Below are positions 38,449-54,000 of a stretch of DNA of 64,000 nt, one piece after another. The DNA is from Acidobacteriota bacterium (GTDB lineage: Bacteria; Acidobacteriota; Blastocatellia; RBC074). A program made the translations under genes and the position numbers. Every line of letters starts with the position of its first letter. Positions within the stretch are counted from its first letter, which is position 1. The notes under the pieces are model-generated. The model was not told the DNA's origin, ran no database searches, and worked only from the letters and a program-made list of their open reading frames with translations. The DNA lies in contig JACPYM010000034.1 of assembly GCA_016196035.1 (NCBI GenBank), positions 124,001 to 188,000 on the forward strand, written 5' to 3'.

Positions 38449-39609
38449 CTAGCCAAGTTGCTTGCGAAAGCGCCACGCACTGATGCCCACCAGCACGATG
38501 GCGAAACCCACCAGCGCGCCGAAATGCGGCCAGAGCACGTCGAGGCCCGCGCTTTTGAGCAGAACCCCGCGCGCGATGCTGGCGAAGTGGCTGATCGGAT
38601 TGAAGAGCGTGAACGGTTGCATCCATTCCGGCATCGCCTCGATGGGGGTCGTCGCGCCCGACAGCATCGAGAGCGGCGGATTGACGAAGAAGCTCATCAA
38701 TTGCGCCTGCTGTTGCGACTTGCTGAACGTCGCCAGAAACGTCCCGATGCCAATGCCCGCCAGCACGCACAGCATTCCCGCCGTGAAGAGCAGCAGCAAG
38801 CTACCGCGCAACGGCAAGTCGAAGACCAGATACCCGGCTGTCAGACCGAGCACGATCTGGGTCGAGAGCAGCACGAAGAGCGGCGCAATCTTGGCGGTCA
38901 CGATTTCGGCGGCTTGCGCCGGGGTCATCAGCAATTGCTCGATGGTGCCCGCTTCTTTCTCGCGCACCAACGCCGACGATCCGATAATCGAACCGTTGAG
39001 CACCAGCAAAATGCCGATCACGCCCGTCACGATGAACCACGCGCTTTGCAAGCCCGGATTGAAGAGCAAGGCGACGCGCGCGACGAATTGTCCGCGTGCG
39101 CTGCCCCCCGAAGTTTGTAACGAAACCGCCTGTGCCGGTTGCGCCAGCCGTTCATTGAGCGCGGCAATGATGCGCGCGGCGTAGCTGCCGGCAATGCCCG
39201 CCGTGTTGGAATTGACCGCGTCGAGCAGCAACTGAACCGGCGCGGTTTCCTGCCGCGCGCGCAGCTTGGCGAAATCGCTGGGCACGACCAAACCCGCATC
39301 CAGCTTGCCCGCGCTCAGCGCCTGGCTCAGCTCGGCAGTTGAGCCGTAAGCAGCCGCGAGTTGAAACGAATTGCTCTCGACAAAGGCCGATACCAACTCG
39401 CGGCTGGCCGTGCTGCGGCTCTCATCCACCACGCCCAGCCGCAAGCCCGTCACATTTGGATTGAGCGCAAACCCGAAGATGACCAGTTGCAGTGTCGGCG
39501 GCAGGATCAACGACACGACCAGCTTTTTGTCCGATTTGATCTGGCGCAATTCTTTCAAAAACAGCGGCCAGAGACGCATGGCGCGAATTCTATTGATGAA
39601 ACTTTGCAT
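38449..39609 (-). CDS. ybhR: ABC-2 type efflux permease, YbhR-like
   Basis: A 386-residue ABC-2 permease. One membrane helix (about 28-50) is followed by a large periplasmic loop (about 55-170) and five more helices in the C-terminal half, the YbhR/YhhJ layout. 'LVREKEAGTIEQLLMTPAQAAEI' is the coupling-helix motif (EKExGT) that contacts the ATPase. GGAGGATTC precedes the ATG. It is the last gene of the efflux operon and forms a heterodimer with the permease encoded just upstream. The substrate (drug or lipid) is unknown. Confidence 0.88.
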   Translation of the reverse strand: MQSFINRIRAMRLWPLFLKELRQIKSDKKLVVSLILPPTLQLVIFGFALNPNVTGLRLGVVDESRSTASRELVSAFVESNSFQLAAAYGSTAELSQALSAGKLDAGLVVPSDFAKLRARQETAPVQLLLDAVNSNTAGIAGSYAARIIAALNERLAQPAQAVSLQTSGGSARGQFVARVALLFNPGLQSAWFIVTGVIGILLVLNGSIIGSSALVREKEAGTIEQLLMTPAQAAEIVTAKIAPLFVLLSTQIVLGLTAGYLVFDLPLRGSLLLLFTAGMLCVLAGIGIGTFLATFSKSQQQAQLMSFFVNPPLSMLSGATTPIEAMPEWMQPFTLFNPISHFASIARGVLLKSAGLDVLWPHFGALVGFAIVLVGISAWRFRKQLG

Positions 39610-39638
39610 GAATCCTCCAAACGAGATGCTAGATGCTG

Positions 39639-39739
39639 GATGCTAGATGCTAGATGCTGGATGCTAGCATCCAAATTCTTCGCTACTTGTTGAAGGTTAG
39701 AGGTTGGGAGCTAGCATCCAGCATCTAGCATCCAGCATC
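39639..39739. repeat. Inverted repeat of tandem GATGCTA/GATGCTGG words between the two permease genes
   Basis: Left arm 39639-39668 and right arm 39710-39739 pair at 29 of 30 positions. Each arm is a short tandem array of 7-8-bp words (GATGCTA, GATGCTGG), and the left array begins earlier, at about 39625. It occupies most of the intercistronic gap between ybhS-like and ybhR-like genes. Confidence 0.85.
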
Positions 39740-39743
39740 TTTC

Positions 39744-40847
39744 TTAAGCGTCAACCTGCATTAGGCGCATCTTTTTCCACGCCTTGAGAAAGTAAAGCGC
39801 GCCGAGCAGCGCCAGCATCAACGGCGCATACCACACGGCGGGCCAGCCGCCGCCGCGCACAAAGCCGTCGCGCACCAGTTCGATGAAATACCGCGCGGGC
39901 ACAATCGCCGAAATCCAGCGGATGCCTGCCGGAATGTTCGAGACCGGGAAGATAAATCCCGACAGCAGGAATGACAGCAGAAACTGCACGCCCGCGACCG
40001 CCTGAATCGCCGCCGCCTGATTCGGAATCGAGACGCCGACCATCACGCCGAAACAGGCGTTGCAAAACAGATACAACACCGTGCCCACCAACAACGGCGT
40101 CGGATCGCCCGCGATCTTCAGATCAAAGAGCGGAAACGCCACCAACAACGCCAGCGCCCACTCGGCCACAGCGATAATGAAAAACCCGGCGATCTTGCCC
40201 AGCAGGAATTCGTGCGCCGAGATGCTCGACACATACACTTGCAGGATCGTTTTCTGCTCGCCTTCGCGCGACATCGCCAGCGCCGCCAACAGGGGCGGGA
40301 AGAGCGCCAGCACGACTGCGAATGCGCCGGGGCCGATGAACTTTCTCGCCGAACCGCCGGGGTTGTACCACATCCGCGTTTCAGCCTTGATGGCGGGCTT
40401 GACCGCAGATGCGCCGCTGCGTTGCGCCGCGAAAGCGTTGGTAATGGAAACCGCCTGTCCGCGCATCGTGTTGGCGGTGTTGGCGTCCACCGCGTCCATC
40501 AGCCATTGCACTTCGACCGTCTGGCCGCGCAAATAATCGCGCTCGAAATGTTGCGGGATCACGATCACCGCGCGCGCCTGCTCTGAAGCCAACGCGGCTT
40601 CGGCGGGCAATTGCGAGGGCACGACGTGAAAGGTAAGCGAGGCATTCAACGCCTCTGCGTACTGGCGCGACAGCGGCGTGCGGTCGTAATCCTGCACGAC
40701 GACCGGGATGCCTTTGACCGACAGCGACAACGCCGTGCCCAGCAGCGCCAGCAAAATCAGCGGCAACACCAGGGCCAGCGCGACGGTCAGCCGGTCGCGA
40801 AAGGTTTGTGTCAGTTCTTTGCGCGCTTGCGCGATGATGCGTTTCAT
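39744..40847 (-). CDS. ybhS: ABC-2 type efflux permease, YbhS-like
   Basis: A 367-residue ABC-2 permease with a first helix (about 22-44), a periplasmic domain (about 45-165) and five C-terminal helices. The EKExGT coupling motif is present in altered form ('SREGEQKTILQVYVSSISAHEF'). AAGGAGAGGAATT precedes the ATG at 40847; the longer upstream frame is only the translated inverted repeat. It pairs with the YbhR-like permease in the transporter. Confidence 0.87.
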   Translation of the reverse strand: MKRIIAQARKELTQTFRDRLTVALALVLPLILLALLGTALSLSVKGIPVVVQDYDRTPLSRQYAEALNASLTFHVVPSQLPAEAALASEQARAVIVIPQHFERDYLRGQTVEVQWLMDAVDANTANTMRGQAVSITNAFAAQRSGASAVKPAIKAETRMWYNPGGSARKFIGPGAFAVVLALFPPLLAALAMSREGEQKTILQVYVSSISAHEFLLGKIAGFFIIAVAEWALALLVAFPLFDLKIAGDPTPLLVGTVLYLFCNACFGVMVGVSIPNQAAAIQAVAGVQFLLSFLLSGFIFPVSNIPAGIRWISAIVPARYFIELVRDGFVRGGGWPAVWYAPLMLALLGALYFLKAWKKMRLMQVDA

Positions 40848-40905
40848 AATTCCTCTCCTTGCTTGCTTCGTTTTGCTTATTGAGCTTTTCAACCGGTCAG
40901 GAGGA

Positions 40906-41010
40906 GAGATTACGGAACAAACGGAAATAACCGAACAAACGGAAGAAGAGTGGCAAATCATTAGGACAGCTTTCTGTCTGTTCCGTTATTTCCGTTTGTT
41001 CCGTAATCTC
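40906..41010. repeat. 33-bp inverted repeat, copy 1 of a family
   Basis: Arms near 40906-40938 and 40978-41010 pair at about 31 of 33 positions and are built of ACGGAA(C/A)A words. The same sequence family forms the 32-bp repeat at 52381-52479. It lies between the double ATPase gene and the first permease gene. Coordinates may be off by one base. Confidence 0.85.
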
Positions 41011-41066
41011 GCTTTGCCTCCCCCAATTGGGAATCGCGTTTGTTGGGCCACCGGCGAGACTTCGCG

Positions 41067-43055
41067 TCAATCTTCGCTCGCCACCTTGCCAACCTTGCGC
41101 GCCTGCTCGACGACCGCGATGAAAACGTCCTCCAGCGAAAAGCGTTCTTCGTGCGCCTGTGTCACGGTGATGCCGTTGTTGCGCAGTTGCCGCTGCAACC
41201 TGCCGATGCCCAGCTCCGCCGCTTCATCCACGATCACGTGCAAGCGGTCGCCAAACAACGACACGCGCCAACGCTCCATTTCGCCTTTCAGCAAATCGGC
41301 GGCTTGCTGCGGTTGATCGGTGAGCAACTCGATCAGGTGGCCGGATTGCGCGGCCTTGATGCCGGTGGGCGTGCCTTCGGCGACCAGTTCGCCCGCGACC
41401 ATGAAGCCGAGCCGGTTGCACTGCTCAGCCTCTTCCAGGTAATGCGTCGTGACCAGCACGGCGACGCCGCGATCCGCCAGTTGATTGATCATCCGCCAGA
41501 ACGCGCGCCGCGCCAGCGGGTCAACGCCAGAGGTCGGTTCGTCCAAAAACAGCACGCTCGGCTCGTGCATCAGCGACGCGCCAAAGGCCACGCGCTGTTT
41601 CCAACCGCCGGGCAACTTGCCCGTCACCATGTCGCCGTGCCCGGCCAGGCCCGAAAATTCCAGCACCCAGCGTTTCTTTTCTTCGCGCTCTTCGGGTGGC
41701 ACCTGATACACGCCCGCAAAGAAATCGAGGTTGTGGTTGATGGTCAGGTCGTCGTAGAGCGAAAACTTCTGCGACATATAACCGATGCGCTGGCGCACGA
41801 AGCTCGAACGCAAGCTGCCCCGTTCGCCCGCCAGTTCCATCTCTCCGCTTGACGGCGCGAGCAAGCCGCAGAGCATTTTGATCGTCGTCGTTTTGCCCGC
41901 GCCGTTCGCGCCCAGCAAGCCGTAAATCTCGCCGTACTTGACCTCGATGTTGACGCCCTTGACCGCGTGGAAATCACGAAAGCTCTTGCGCAAATCGCGC
42001 GCGCCGATGGCAATCGCGTCTGCCGCGCGCTGGCGGAATTGCCGCCGTTGCGGGAAGGGCGCGGCTTTCATCTCGCCATTCAATTCGCGCAAGACAGAGA
42101 CGAAAGCATTTTCCAGCGTGGGCGCGCCCGAGCCGACTTCGAGCACTGCGATGTCTGCCGCACTCAGCGCCGTGCGCGCCAATTCCTCACCACGCGCGGC
42201 ATCGCTGACCATCACGTCCAAGCGGTCGCCGAAACGCTGCACGTCCGTGATGCCTGCGACTTCGCCCAACACTTCTTCGGCTTGGCTCAGCTTGGCGGCG
42301 CGCACTTCCAGCCGTTGCAGCCCCAGATTGTTGCGAATCTCGGCGGGCGTGCCGGTTTGGTGAATCACGCCATCGTGCATCAACGCCACGCGCGTGCAGC
42401 GTTCGGCTTCGTCTAGATACGGCGTCGCCACGACGATGGTCATGCCGTTGATCGAAAGGCTCGCCAACGTGTCCCAAAACTCGCGGCGCGAAACCGGATC
42501 AACGCCTGTGGTCGGTTCGTCCAGCAGCAAGACTTTCGGCTCGGTGATCAGCGCGCAGGCCAGCGCCAGCTTCTGTTTCATCCCGCCGCTCAGCTTGCCC
42601 GCCAGCCGGTCGGTGAAGCGATCCATGTCAAACAGCTTCAGGTAATGCAGCCCGCGCTCTTTGATTTCGCGGTTGGACAGCTTGCGCAGTTGGCCGACGT
42701 AGCGCAGGTTCTCGGCCACGCTCAAATCCTGATAGAGACTGAACGCCTGCGTCAGATAGCCGATTTGCGCACGGGCCGCGCGCGCCGTCTGCCCGAAGAG
42801 CGTGACTTCACCCGCCGTCGCTTTCATCACGCCGCCCAGAATCTGAAAGATCGAAGTCTTGCCCGCGCCGTCCGGCCCGATTAGCCCGAAGATTTCGCCG
42901 CGTTGGATGGCGAGTTCGACACCGCGCACGGCTGCAAAGTCGCCGTAGCTTTTGTGTAGGTTGCGAATGTGGATGGCGGTTTCTGTTGCAGGCCAATTCA
43001 CCGGTAGCAAGTTTTGCTCGGCGTAATCTGATTTAATTGCGAGAAATGCACTCAT
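41067..43055 (-). CDS. ybhF: Double ABC ATPase of a YbhF-type exporter
   Basis: A 662-residue protein with two fused ABC domains. NBD1: Walker A GPDGAGKT (60-67), signature 'LSGGMKQKLALA', Walker B 'VLLLDEPTTGVDP'. NBD2: Walker A 'GANGAGKT', signature changed to 'LPGGWKQRVAF', Walker B 'VLFLDEPTSGVDP'. The changed second signature is also seen in YbhF, which argues for this family over RbbA. It supplies energy for the two permeases encoded downstream. The order adaptor-ATPase-permease-permease is the same as in E. coli ybhGFSR. Confidence 0.9.
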   Translation of the reverse strand: MSAFLAIKSDYAEQNLLPVNWPATETAIHIRNLHKSYGDFAAVRGVELAIQRGEIFGLIGPDGAGKTSIFQILGGVMKATAGEVTLFGQTARAARAQIGYLTQAFSLYQDLSVAENLRYVGQLRKLSNREIKERGLHYLKLFDMDRFTDRLAGKLSGGMKQKLALACALITEPKVLLLDEPTTGVDPVSRREFWDTLASLSINGMTIVVATPYLDEAERCTRVALMHDGVIHQTGTPAEIRNNLGLQRLEVRAAKLSQAEEVLGEVAGITDVQRFGDRLDVMVSDAARGEELARTALSAADIAVLEVGSGAPTLENAFVSVLRELNGEMKAAPFPQRRQFRQRAADAIAIGARDLRKSFRDFHAVKGVNIEVKYGEIYGLLGANGAGKTTTIKMLCGLLAPSSGEMELAGERGSLRSSFVRQRIGYMSQKFSLYDDLTINHNLDFFAGVYQVPPEEREEKKRWVLEFSGLAGHGDMVTGKLPGGWKQRVAFGASLMHEPSVLFLDEPTSGVDPLARRAFWRMINQLADRGVAVLVTTHYLEEAEQCNRLGFMVAGELVAEGTPTGIKAAQSGHLIELLTDQPQQAADLLKGEMERWRVSLFGDRLHVIVDEAAELGIGRLQRQLRNNGITVTQAHEERFSLEDVFIAVVEQARKVGKVASED

Positions 43056-43088: not shown

Positions 43089-43272
43089 AAGCCCCAACGG
43101 GGCGCGATATAACAGCCCAGGGCAACGCCCTGGGTTCATTGGCGAATACATTGAAAGCCCTGAAGGGGCGCAATAAACACCTACTATTTCGCCCTTTCAG
43201 GGCTTTTCTGTGTGGGGCTACGTCTTCCCAGGGCGATGCCCTGGGCTTTCCGATTACGCCCCGTTGGGGCTT
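43089..43272. repeat. Nested triple inverted repeat (184 bp)
   Basis: Three symmetrical layers: outer arms 43089-43104 and 43257-43272 (perfect 16 bp, GCCCCAACGGGGC core), middle near 43115-43135 and 43228-43248 (CCCAGGGC..GCCCTGGG cores), inner around 43153-43205 (GCCCTGAA..TTCAGGGC cores). Each word is itself a small palindrome. It fills the gap between the ATPase and adaptor genes. Similar words occur as dispersed repeats in other bacterial phyla; the link is by recollection and not by search. Confidence 0.85.
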
Positions 43273-43293
43273 TCGACCCTGCCGCTTTCAACC

Positions 43294-44502
43294 CTACCGA
43301 TTCGTCGCCACCCACTGATTGCCTTCGACCAACACTTCGCCATCGGCGGGCATGCCCGGTTTGGCGAAACCTTGCGGGTTGGCGAGTTGCAACTTCACGC
43401 CGACGACTTGCTTGATGCGGTCGTCGCGGAAGTAAGTGTTCTCCGGCGTGAACGACGCTTGCGGGTCAATGCGCGCGACGATGGCGTCCAGCGGTTGTTT
43501 GGCGTTCGAGTCCAAATAAACACGCGCGGCTTGCCCGGTGCGCACGCGGCCAATTTCGCCTTCGGGAATGAAGGCGCGCAGGTAAATCTGATCGGGATTG
43601 AGAATCGTCAGGATCGCAGAACCAGGCGCGACGATTTCGCCAGGTTCCGCCGAGCGCGTCGCCACGATGCCCGCGAAGGGGGCGACGATTTGCAGGTCGC
43701 TGCGATTGGCTTCGGCTTCCTGCAACTCGGCGCGATAGCGGGCGGCTTCGGCGGCGGCGGACTGAATATCGGATTGCGCCTGGCGAATCTGCTGTTCGAC
43801 GGCGGTGGTTTGGGCCGTGCGAATCGCGGGGTTATCCAGGTTCGCTTTGGCCGCCAGCAACGCGCCGCGCGCGGCTTCGACCTGTTTGCGCGCGGCTTGC
43901 ACCACGGCGGTATGCGCGTCGAAGGTGTTGCGCGCCTGTTCGCCGTCGCGCGCGGGCACGTCGCCTTGCGCCGCCAGCGTGCCATAGCGTTCGGCATCCG
44001 CTGCCGCCTGTTTGTGATCGGCTTCGGCGCGGGCCAGCGAAGCTTCGGCGGCGGCGACGTGTGCTTGCGCCTGACTGACGCGACCTTCGGCATCCACGCG
44101 GGATTGGTTGATGCCGAGACGGCTTTGTTCCAATTGCGCCTGCAAAACAGGGACCTGTTGACGCGCGGCTTGCAGCTTGGCGTCGGCCTGCGTCACGTTC
44201 GATTGCGCCTGGGTGACGCGGGCGTTGAGTTGGTCATCGGTGAGCGTCGCGATAACTTGCCCGGCTTTGACGTGATCGCCTTCGCGCACGGTGATTTCGC
44301 GGATGCGCCCAGAGGTCTTGGCCGCGATGACGGCATCATCGCTCTCGATGCGTCCGGTCACGGCAACGATTTCGCGCGGGCCGGATGGTTTGCGGAAGTA
44401 GTACCAGGCCGCTGCCACGCCCGTGAGTAAGGTCAACGCGAGAATGGCGCGGGCGGCTTTCGCCTTGTGTGATTTGCCTGCGGTGTTGTTGCTGTCGGTC
44501 AT
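43294..44502 (-). CDS. ybhG: HlyD-family periplasmic adaptor, YbhG-like
   Basis: A 402-residue membrane fusion protein: N-terminal membrane anchor (about 18-36), biotinyl/lipoyl-like half-motifs ('GRIREITVREGDHVKAGQVIATL' in part and 'LQIVAPFAGIVATRSAEPGEIV' in part), and a long alpha-helical coiled-coil hairpin (about 90-250, Ala/Gln/Arg-rich), then a beta-barrel. It bridges the inner-membrane ABC transporter and TolC. AGAAGGAG precedes the ATG at 44502. Cotranscribed with the genes around it. Confidence 0.9.
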   Translation of the reverse strand: MTDSNNTAGKSHKAKAARAILALTLLTGVAAAWYYFRKPSGPREIVAVTGRIESDDAVIAAKTSGRIREITVREGDHVKAGQVIATLTDDQLNARVTQAQSNVTQADAKLQAARQQVPVLQAQLEQSRLGINQSRVDAEGRVSQAQAHVAAAEASLARAEADHKQAAADAERYGTLAAQGDVPARDGEQARNTFDAHTAVVQAARKQVEAARGALLAAKANLDNPAIRTAQTTAVEQQIRQAQSDIQSAAAEAARYRAELQEAEANRSDLQIVAPFAGIVATRSAEPGEIVAPGSAILTILNPDQIYLRAFIPEGEIGRVRTGQAARVYLDSNAKQPLDAIVARIDPQASFTPENTYFRDDRIKQVVGVKLQLANPQGFAKPGMPADGEVLVEGNQWVATNR

Positions 44503-44539
44503 AATTTTGCTCCTTCTGCTGTCTTGATTCTGTTGTTTT

Positions 44540-44620
44540 GCCACAGAGGCACAGAGGCACAGAGCAAGAAAATAGTCTTGCCCCGTCTCGCCTTCCTCTG
44601 TGTCTCTGTGCCTCTGTGGC
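44540..44620. repeat. 25-bp inverted repeat of CACAGAGG words
   Basis: Arms 44540-44564 and 44596-44620 pair at 24 of 25 positions around a 31-nt loop, each built from the repeated word CACAGAGG. It lies in the gap between the TolC and adaptor genes. Confidence 0.88.
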
Positions 44621-44637: not shown

Positions 44638-46359
44638 TTACCGGCGGCTGACCAATGCGACGTTGTTGTTGGTCAGCGTGGTTGAAAGCGCGCGCTGCAT
44701 CTCGGCGACGGCTTTCGTGTAATCGGTGAGCGCCTTCAACTCGCGTCCGCGTGCCGACGACAAAGCGTTTTGCCGATCCAGCACGAAGAAGTTGGTGGAT
44801 TGCCCGGCGTCGAATTTGCGCTGCTCGCTTTGCGCTTGCAGTTCGGCGTTGACGCGCGAATTTTTGGCGGCTTCGACACGGCGCTTGGCGGTTTCGATTC
44901 CTTGCACGGCGTTGCGCACTTCGCCTTCGATCTGCTGTTCCGTGCGTTGGCGTTGGGCGTCGAGTTGCTTGCCTTCGACCAGCGCGCGTCCGTAATTCGC
45001 TTTGGCCGTGCGGTTGCGCAGCGAAAGGTTGAAAGTCACGCCGGCGCGGAAAGCGCGGTACTCGTTGCGAAAGAGATTCGCCGCGTTCTGGCCGTAACCG
45101 CCGATGAATTTCTCAGGCGTTGCGCCAAACGAAAACGGCGGCAGCGGCGCGAGGCCAGCAACTTGCGACAGTTGATTGACGCGGTCGAAAAGCAGTTGAT
45201 TGCCCGCAACAATCGGGTTGGTTTCGGTGCGTTCTTTGCCCGCCAAGCCATACGTGCCGTAGCTGGCGAAGAAATCAATCTGCGGCTTCGTTTGGTTCTT
45301 GAAATACGCCACATCCACTTTGTTCAGCTCGCCGCGCAAGCGGTACTGCTCCATCTCCGGGCGATTGGCGAAGGCCAGGCGCAAGGCGTCTTCAACCGGC
45401 AGCGCGGCGTCGTGGTTGATCTGCGGTTGTTCGGCAGGAACCAGGGCGGCGCTCCATTGTTCGGTCGCACCCGCAGGCAGCAGCAACAGCTTCAGCGCGT
45501 TTTCGGCGCGTTGGATGGCCTCGATGGCGGCTTCGGCTTCGTCGGTGCGGCGTTCGACTTCGACGCGGGCGGAGACGACATCCGCCGGGGCCAGCGTGCC
45601 TTGCTTGGCCAGGCGTTCGTTGTGTTCGAGTTGCGTCTGCGCCAGTGCGACCGATTCGCGTTTGATGTCGGCATCGCGGCGCGCAAAGACCAAATCCCAG
45701 TAGGCGCGTTCGGCCTGCGCGATGATCTCGATGGCGCGTTGGCGGAACTGACTGTCGGACAGGTCTAGGCGTTTGCTGGCAATGCGCAGTTGACGGCGCG
45801 CCGCGTCAATCTTGCGGTTGCGCAAGAGCGGCTGGGTGAATTCAACCGTCAACTGCGAAGTGAATTGCGGGTTGAGCGCATTGAACAGGTTTTGGCTCGT
45901 CGTGCGGCTTTGGTCGTAACTGAGATTGACGTTGCCGCCTTGCCAGGGCAGTTGTTGCGCGAGCTTGGCCGCGCCGCTGAAATCGGTCGTGCGTAACTTG
46001 CCGTTCTCGCCGCCCGCCAGGATCGAAGCGACGGGCGTGGTTTGCCGGTCGTAAAAATAGCTGCTCGACAGCGTCGGGTCGTAGAAGCCTTTGGCCGCGC
46101 GCAAATCCTGTTCAGAGAGTTGCGTGTTGAGTCGTTCGATCTCGATCTCGCGGTTGTTTTCGAGCGCCATCGTCACGGCTTCGCGTAGCGTCAACAGCGT
46201 TTGTTTGTCGGCCTGGACGCCCGCGCGTTGAATGGGCGCGGGTGTTGTTGCCTGAACCGTCGGCAACGGAAGCTGCGCCCAGGTGGATTGGGTGGACATT
46301 ACGGCGAGTAACGCGGCCAGCACGCCGTGATGCAATTGTTTCAGCTTGGTGTTGAACAT
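44638..46359 (-). CDS. TolC-family outer-membrane efflux protein
   Basis: A 573-residue outer-membrane channel subunit with a signal peptide (about 1-28, ending TWAQL) and two TolC/OEP repeats ('[21 protein letters not shown]' in part and the second half from about 300). Long Ala/Gln/Arg-rich helices would form the periplasmic tunnel, and '[14 protein letters not shown]' is typical of the first beta segment in the OEP family. GAGGGAG precedes the ATG at 46359. It completes the tripartite exporter with the adaptor and ABC proteins, so the operon is self-sufficient for export across both membranes. Confidence 0.9.
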
Positions 46360-46485: not shown

Positions 46486-46794
46486 CTACTCGGTAAGTTC
46501 GACTGTGTCCGTGTGGCCGGACAAGCGCCGCATGATCTGTTCAACCAGGGCGCGCATCTGGACATCGGCGGCGATGAGTTTGACTTGGGCTTTTGCCATC
46601 GCCAGCAATAACTGTTTGCCCGCGTCGTCTACAAAGGTGACTTCGGATAAATCCAAGTTGACGGCCAGCGGTTGCGGCGTCGCCATGGTGTAATGCCAGC
46701 AGCGTTCCAACTCCGGCGTCCATTCGCCCGCCAGCCGGCCCGCCAATTTGAAGGTCAGTGCCTCCTCGTCTCGTTGTTCCGTAATCTTCAACAT
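46486..46794 (-). CDS. STAS-domain protein
   Basis: A 102-residue stand-alone STAS domain ('FKLAGRLAGEWTPELERCW', 'LAVNLDLSEVTFVDDAGKQLLL'). It keeps the general shape of anti-sigma factor antagonists. The Asp-Ser site is replaced by VDDAG, with Ala where the phosphorylated Ser would be, so a SpoIIAA-type switch is doubtful. GGGAG lies upstream. It is the second gene of the efflux operon. A role in signalling or in binding a small ligand is possible. Confidence 0.8.
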   Translation of the reverse strand: MLKITEQRDEEALTFKLAGRLAGEWTPELERCWHYTMATPQPLAVNLDLSEVTFVDDAGKQLLLAMAKAQVKLIAADVQMRALVEQIMRRLSGHTDTVELTE

Positions 46795-46866
46795 CGTTTT
46801 CTCCCACGTTCGTCTTATGATTCCTTCTCCTGCTTGATTCTCTTTGTTTATCTCCCGCTTGCTTCA

Positions 46867-47250
46867 TCAACGCACGTAACCCGCCGCCGTCCGGGCCGCC
46901 GCATAAGCGTCCAGGGGCGAAAGCAGCACGATCAACATCCAGAGCGGCAGGGTGATCAACGTGCAAAGCAAACGCTGAAAGCTGCGGCTGGAATTCGGCG
47001 CGGCGGTTTTAGCCGCCAGGCTTTCGGTGACAACCTTGAGCAATTGGCCCGAATAAGTTTGAAACGCGCCGGTTTGCACGTCCAGCGGCTTGGTTTCGCT
47101 CTCCGCCAAATGGATCAGTTCGGTGACGGTGGCGTAGCGGTTGAGTTGTTGTGCGCCGCAATGGCGGCAGTATTTGTCGCGTTTGCGCACGCCGGTCGCG
47201 CAAGCGTGACATTGGTGATCTATCGGTTCTGTTACTGGTCTCGCTGTCAT
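46867..47250 (-). CDS. Zinc-ribbon protein with a C-terminal membrane segment
   Basis: A 127-residue hypothetical protein. The N-terminus has CHAC and CRHC pairs (about 14-33; 'HQCHACATGVRKRDKYCRHC'), a zinc-ribbon. A middle helical region precedes a hydrophobic stretch (about 95-118, 'LLCTLITLPLWMLIVLLSP'). GGGAAGAG lies before the start. It is the first gene after the sigma-54 promoter. A scaffold or sensor function is possible but not indicated. Confidence 0.7.
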   Translation of the reverse strand: MTARPVTEPIDHQCHACATGVRKRDKYCRHCGAQQLNRYATVTELIHLAESETKPLDVQTGAFQTYSGQLLKVVTESLAAKTAAPNSSRSFQRLLCTLITLPLWMLIVLLSPLDAYAAARTAAGYVR

Positions 47251-47312
47251 AACGTTGTCTCTTCCCGTCTAGCGTTCTTTCGTTGCGATCTCGGTGCGAC
47301 GGCCAGCCCTAG

Positions 47313-47329
47313 TGCAAACGCATTGCCAG
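47313..47329 (-). promoter_or_regulatory. Sigma-54 (-24/-12) promoter of the efflux operon
   Basis: On the minus strand CTGGCAATGCGTTTGCA has GG at 47327-47326 and GC at 47315-47314 with exactly 10 nt between; the -12 element TTTGCA and the -24 element TGGCA fit the consensus. Transcription would start near 47302, about 52 nt before the zinc-ribbon gene. A sigma-54 activator gene ends 269 nt further upstream. Confidence 0.7.
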
Positions 47330-47441
47330 AGCCGGGGAAAAAGTTTCAGCAACGCAGTAAGCGCCCGCAAGGAATAAGGTTGTTTCGATTTTGGAGAAGG
47401 CTTATGGCTGCGTGCCGAGGGTGAGTGCCGATGGTGACGAA

Positions 47442-47473
47442 GCCGACATTTCGGCAAGTGCCGAAATGTCGGC
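47442..47473 (-). promoter_or_regulatory. Two palindromic upstream activator sites (TGCCGA-N4-TCGGCA type)
   Basis: GCCGA-CATT-TCGGC (47442-47455) and GCCGA-AATG-TCGGC (47460-47473) are two copies of the same palindrome, with centres 18 bp apart and about 146 and 164 bp upstream of the predicted start. This is the usual position for enhancer sites of sigma-54 activators. Together the two also form a perfect 14-bp hairpin with an AAGT loop, so an RNA or terminator role is an alternative. Confidence 0.6.
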
Positions 47474-47481
47474 ACGAAACA

Positions 47482-47566
47482 GTACCGCGCGCGTGAGCAA
47501 GCGGAGTCGTTACGTTGAGTCCATTGGATATGAGTTGCGAAAGCCGCTTGCTCACGCGCGCGGTAC
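47482..47566. repeat. Perfect 23-bp inverted repeat, copy 1 of a family
   Basis: Arms 47482-47504 and 47544-47566 (words GTACCGCGCGCG and TGAGCAAGCGG) are exact complements around a 39-nt loop. An identical arm pair with a different loop is at 53915-54000. It lies just beyond the stop of the 7-GAF regulator gene. Confidence 0.95.
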
Positions 47567-47597
47567 CGCACCAGAGTTGAGCGGCAGCGATGTCGTT

Positions 47598-52340
<4,743 letters not shown>

Positions 52341-52380
52341 ATCGAGTACTGCTTGTTATAGGGTTGTAGGAAGGAAGACA

Positions 52381-52479
52381 GAGATTACGGAACAGACGGA
52401 AATAACGGAACAGACGGAATGGGAACTGGCTTTAGCCGGCTTCTGTTTGTTCCGTTATTTCCGTCTGTTCCGTAATCTC
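52381..52479. repeat. Perfect 32-bp inverted repeat, copy 2 of a family
   Basis: Arms 52381-52412 and 52448-52479 are exact complements around a 35-nt loop and share their sequence with the repeat at 40906-41010. It lies between the sugar isomerase-type gene and the 7-GAF regulator gene, before the regulator's start. Confidence 0.95.
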
Positions 52480-53914: not shown

Positions 53915-54000
53915 GGTACCGCGCGCGTGAGCAAGCGGCGATTTGGGAGGGATACCGCTAGCGCAAGGATGACGCACCGCTTGCTCACGCGCGCGGTACC
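53915..54000. repeat. Perfect 24-bp inverted repeat, copy 2 of a family
   Basis: Arms 53915-53938 and 53977-54000 (word GGTACCGCGCGCG, then TGAGCAAGCGG) are exact complements around a 38-nt loop. The arms equal those at 47482-47566 while the loops differ, showing a dispersed repeat. It lies between the divergent isomerase-type and RluA genes. Confidence 0.95.

Follow-up and report, generated by a model that had tools for sequence, protein, structure and literature searches.

The closest described counterparts of the regulatory switch analysed here are activators of the FhlA/NorR/NifA type, which combine GAF, AAA+ (with the GAFTGA loop) and helix-turn-helix (HTH) domains in that order with paired dyads upstream of the target and a promoter of the GG-N10-GC form. 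Mechanistically, looping of the intervening DNA and ATP-driven promoter opening are well established for the sigma-54 family. The export machinery, in turn, resembles the YbhGFSR-type tripartite ABC exporter, with an HlyD-type protein, a double ATPase and two ABC-2 permeases operating with TolC. In E. coli, YbhFSR is reported to take part in tetracycline efflux (PMC7190983). A comparative study has linked sigma-54 in many phyla to the making and transport of exterior molecules (PMC3162934); its text does not use the word 'efflux'. Our searches of the open-licence literature turned up no account of efflux under sigma-54 control in Acidobacteriota, and nothing relevant on sigma-54 control in Acidobacteria or on the dyad sequence described below.

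The locus lies in the window (the whole 64-kb stretch of DNA analysed, from a genome of 9.59 Mb) and shares the domain, site and gene features listed above with both known systems, but it differs from the activators in carrying seven GAF domains rather than one or two, another dyad, an exporter as the target and an acidobacteriotal host, and from the exporters in having its own TolC, Zn-ribbon and STAS-like genes and sigma-54 control. We are highly confident that the region between the activator and exporter genes is the enhancer and promoter of a sigma-54-dependent exporter operon, run by the adjacent activator. By every testable feature, the switch belongs to the sigma-54 enhancer-binding kind; its principle is textbook sigma-54, and what is new is the site, the array and the phylum.

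Genomically, the activator and the exporter operon occupy one strand (minus), with the activator upstream, in the order activator, control region, Zn-ribbon, STAS-like, TolC, HlyD, double ATPase and two ABC-2 permeases. The activator (47598-52340, 1580 aa) contains seven GAF domains, an AAA+ sigma-54 interaction domain and a Fis-type HTH, which we take, as a lead, to resemble that of FhlA. Pfam matches comprised GAF_2 in seven stretches, in agreement with the domain count of a preliminary description of this DNA, Sigma54_activat (1.1e-71), AAA_lid_14 and a C-terminal HTH_8 (8.5e-07, above the curated cut-off, hence the Fis-type assignment), and the GAFTGA loop and Walker motifs expected of an enhancer-binding-protein AAA+ domain are intact in the translation. 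The recognition helix of the HTH is KRTTLQSRMQKLGI, and the closest solved chain by sequence is 9qq6, a Nif-specific regulatory protein.

The -24/-12 promoter, TGGCAATGCGTTTGCA, was located at 47313-47328 on the minus strand (read 47328-47313), with precisely the GG-N10-GC spacing that had been claimed for it, and a predicted +1 at 47302, set 24 bp from the second G of GG. This element is the one exact match to TGGCA-N6-TTGCA in the 64-kb window, and when the 347-bp intergenic region was shuffled with its dinucleotides kept, 10 of 2000 sequences scored as high; the matrix approximates the consensus, and its scores serve for ranking only. Spacing, consensus context and conservation in relatives, among which TTTGGCAA-N5-TTGCCCTA is the commonest -24/-12 form, all point to a sigma-54 promoter; RpoN is encoded in the same genome (PF04552, 1.3e-56, at C99), and no sigma-70 promoter was detected across 46800-47700. 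On the approximate matrix, the corresponding elements in G013, G036, G011 and G363 scored poorly.

Upstream of this promoter, GCCGA-N4-TCGGC occurs at 47442-47455 and 47460-47473 with centres 18 bp apart, as the preliminary description had it, and three matches to this pattern were found in the window against 0.26 expected. The binding site proposed there, TGCCGA-N4-TCGGCA, proved correct in sequence but too short, and is better extended to TGCCGAnATnTCGGCA. The two putative upstream activator sites, dyad 1 (TGCCGACATTTCGGCA, 47459-47474, minus strand) and dyad 2 (TGCCGAAATGTCGGCT, 47441-47456, minus strand), are centred at approximately -164 and -146 relative to 47302, matching the earlier placement; dyad 1 has counterparts at 12 other promoters, and dyad 2 is likewise conserved. 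Two minus-strand TCGGCA half-sites follow, half-site 3 (47426-47431) 15 bp past the right half of dyad 2 and half-site 4 (47413-47418), with weaker conservation, 13 bp past half-site 3.

Evolutionarily, the array is retained well beyond this locus. In each syntenic locus reached through Zn-ribbon and TolC relatives (G008, G010 and G013), the dyads and a GG-N10-GC element lie between activator and operon, so that the palindromes are conserved where both genes are, an outcome on which the preliminary description had made its reading depend. The dyad pair and promoter element also occur at exporter promoters of G011 and G017, and G036 has a slightly different layout, with three dyads in steps of 15 and 17 bp and a promoter distance of 126 bp. 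A pair of TGCCGAnATnTCGGCA-like dyads with the 18-bp step was found at 11 promoters in 7 genomes, usually with one or two extra TCGGCA half-sites, and dyad 2 there lies 116-121 bp from the T of TGG in a GG-N10-GC promoter. The half-site 15 bp past the right half of dyad 2 recurs at nine of the 11; the second, 13 bp further, is less regular, and half-sites are missing or shifted at some loci. Spacer identity was 0.37-0.58 for nearly all pairs versus a shuffled mean of 0.41 (the exception being the sister loci L109 and L110, at 0.80), and retention of the array is thus not merely a matter of recent descent. Wherever it was readable, the downstream operon encodes a tripartite exporter of the ABC-2 or RND type. 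In G011, the array sits ~3 kb downstream of the activator, near ABC exporter genes and before the exporter promoter. A second such activator in the window's own genome (L225, G000:C64:127001-146900) is followed by an array as well; this paralogous C64 locus has two array-bearing promoters, one before small genes and another, the strong TTCTGGCAAAGCCGTTGCACTA, before an RND exporter, and its dyad 2 is GACGATATTTCGTC (GACGA..TCGTC), with both arms changed together.

These arrangements bear on whether the palindromes could instead act as a transcription terminator, or be a hairpin derived from a repeat, at the activator 3' end, with no protein bound to them. Such a structure would suit their position just past the activator stop codon, the proximity of a palindromic repeat with hundreds of copies, and the mutual complementarity of dyads 1 and 2, which at the window locus join into a single perfect inverted repeat of 32 bp with 2 nt between its arms (47442-47456 and 47459-47473), a structure that appeared in 0 of 500 shuffles. 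However, no terminator-like site was detected at the dyads, both G011 and the second promoter of C64 have the array kilobases from the activator and ahead of the exporter promoter, and the orthologous arrays consist of two discrete dyads rather than a single long repeat, the window palindrome being unique in its genome; we therefore judge this reading extremely unlikely. The adjoining repeat copy (47482-47566) has a second copy at 53916-53999, both with perfect 23-bp arms (GTACCGCGCGCGTGAGCAAGCGG) that flank a variable ~38-bp centre; the arm has 673 matches genome-wide on both strands at ≤2 mismatches, and its reversed control has none. This repeat borders the switch and is not part of it, and the orthologous activator-operon gaps contain no such 23-bp-arm inverted repeat. 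An origin of the dyads from the dispersed repeat, 9 bp away, was considered and rejected, since the dyads are unique in the genome and are conserved without it.

Functionally, dyads and activator are tied together through the recognition helix. An HTH-based search extended the set, and the region past the activator was examined in 40 loci (one a duplicate record): the dyad pair was present in 11 of the 12 loci with a KR[ST]TL[QN] helix and in 0 of the 28 with other helices. The 11 positives comprise ten loci including G011, plus one that came from a blind search via the upstream activator sites; the twelfth, G045 (L270), has the helix with one weak dyad only. Fisher's test gave ~7e-9, computed on 11/12 versus 0/27 (one locus below the final count) and taking no account of relatedness. 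The blind search, which looked for the paired dyad in 396 genomes across the phylum at ≤2 mismatches, returned the window locus, G011, G013, G017 and G363, each next to or not far from such an activator, and one unrelated place, whereas the reversed pattern gave 0 matches in the same 396 genomes. Newly recovered by this route, G363 belongs to the same phylum and is marked as not of the same class; its dyads lie just past an activator with the helix KRSTLQSRMQKL and ahead of a STAS-like gene, and its promoter element is weak. Lone exact 16-mers in G022 and G079, with no promoter beside them, were dismissed as chance, and L293, L298, L299, L301, L302 and L303 (2-3 mismatches) were set aside for want of a promoter-like site within ~330 bp.

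Many HTH dimers could bind dyads of this kind, and the pairing of these dyads with the adjacent activator is a prediction from co-occurrence in sequence; the dyads might accordingly serve as the operator of another regulator, with the adjacent activator acting elsewhere. Yet dyad presence tracks that activator's recognition helix, and the distance to the -24 element stays constant at the 116-121 bp given above. Activators with other helices beside the same exporter, moreover, carry a different pair: those with an LPISTLR helix have GATGC..GCATC dyads ~19 bp apart (four loci, noticed after the fact), as in L146 (GATGCCGTATTTGGCATC and GATGCCGCCGGTGGCATC, 19 bp apart) and, with related pairs, L149, L274 and L280, and the L146 and L149 activators adjoin an exporter of the window's type. 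We consider a separate regulator very unlikely, and control by the adjacent activator remains our preferred reading. More broadly, and tentatively, multi-GAF activators of Acidobacteriota may read helix-specific dyads (KR[ST]TL[QN] with TGCCGA..TCGGCA at 18 bp, LPISTLR with GATGC..GCATC at ~19 bp), placed as two full sites plus half-sites in a fixed array and at a fixed distance from sigma-54 promoters of tripartite exporters, such that the helix alone would suffice to predict targets and geometry would set activator assembly; we hold this generalization to be plausible, at somewhat less than even chances.

The first gene past the promoter (46867-47250, minus strand, as are all genes of the operon) encodes a 127-aa Zn-ribbon protein whose C-terminal part has a hydrophobic stretch (Zn_ribbon_NOB1 just below cut-off), relatives of which adjoin equivalent promoters in G008 and G010, and the second (46486-46794) a 102-aa STAS-like protein (PF13466, 1.4e-06, just below cut-off) that is retained in relatives. 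Next come a TolC-like outer-membrane factor (44638-46359; PF02321, 4.6e-43), a YbhG-like HlyD-type membrane fusion protein (43294-44544; PF13437, PF16576), a YbhF-like double-ATPase ABC subunit (41067-43055; PF00005 in two stretches) and two YbhS/R-like ABC-2 permeases (39744-40961 and 38449-39609; both PF12698). HlyD, double ATPase, two ABC-2 permeases and TolC in an operon-like block are the gene content of a YbhGFSR-TolC exporter, whose named relatives are mostly Acidobacteriota, the nearest being Acidobacteria and Blastocatellia; the class assigned to the window's genome is drawn from these relatives. The earlier proposal that the adjacent activator controls this exporter is strengthened by the conserved array and the helix-dyad tie, but it had overlooked the two small genes before TolC.

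Those small genes raise a narrower form of our explanation, compatible with most of it, in which a real switch governs just the Zn-ribbon and STAS-like genes, and separate promoters serve the exporter genes. The gaps of up to ~240 bp between exporter genes, with tandem and inverted repeats inside, would accommodate this, and a small gene often comes first past these promoters; on the other hand, the array precedes exporter genes in other arrangements (near the ABC exporter of G011, away from the activator, and ahead of the RND exporter behind the second promoter of C64), and the exporter gene order is conserved in relatives across families, which makes so restricted a switch unlikely. As a separate observation, a short protein beginning M-x(1,3)-RI(T/S)Q, STAS-like by eye, is often the first gene past these sigma-54 promoters (L149, L268, L271, L274, L280, L284 and L285). 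Short tandem repeats were also noted in the gaps at 39624-39740, 40912-41016, 43269-43299, 44542-44618 and 52376-52419, several of them matched by an inverted copy within their own gap, and copies of the unit ACGGAAC stand near 40912, 40979 and 52387.

Taken as the switch of the whole operon, the stretch is very probably a real one, with paired docking sites and a sigma-54 promoter for a tripartite export pump. We infer that the (GAF)7-AAA+-HTH activator would bind the two TGCCGAnATnTCGGCA dyads, probably assisted by the two half-sites, contact the sigma-54 polymerase poised at TGGCAATGCGTTTGCA by looping out the spacer of ~120 bp, and open the promoter by ATP hydrolysis. The Zn-ribbon and STAS-like genes would then be transcribed, and probably the whole TolC-HlyD-ABC-ABC2-ABC2 operon too, readthrough to its end being assumed. 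Activator activity would be set by a signal sensed in at least one of the GAF domains, making the control inducible and ligand-gated, and drug export would be expected of a YbhGFSR-TolC exporter; counted against our explanation is that the activator GAF domains showed no identifiable ligand-binding residue. For this regulator-exporter pair in Acidobacteriota, a testable predicted binding site and promoter are now available, and the helix-dyad link would allow the targets of related activators to be predicted from sequence. The number of GAF domains itself ranges from 2 to 7 in otherwise similar activators (window 47598-52340, L092, L103, L104, L109, L225 and L307), with seven in the window and G008, three in G013 and C64, and two in G036, G008:C15 and G363. 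That this number varies while helix and dyad stay alike fits a sensing part evolving apart from the DNA-binding part.
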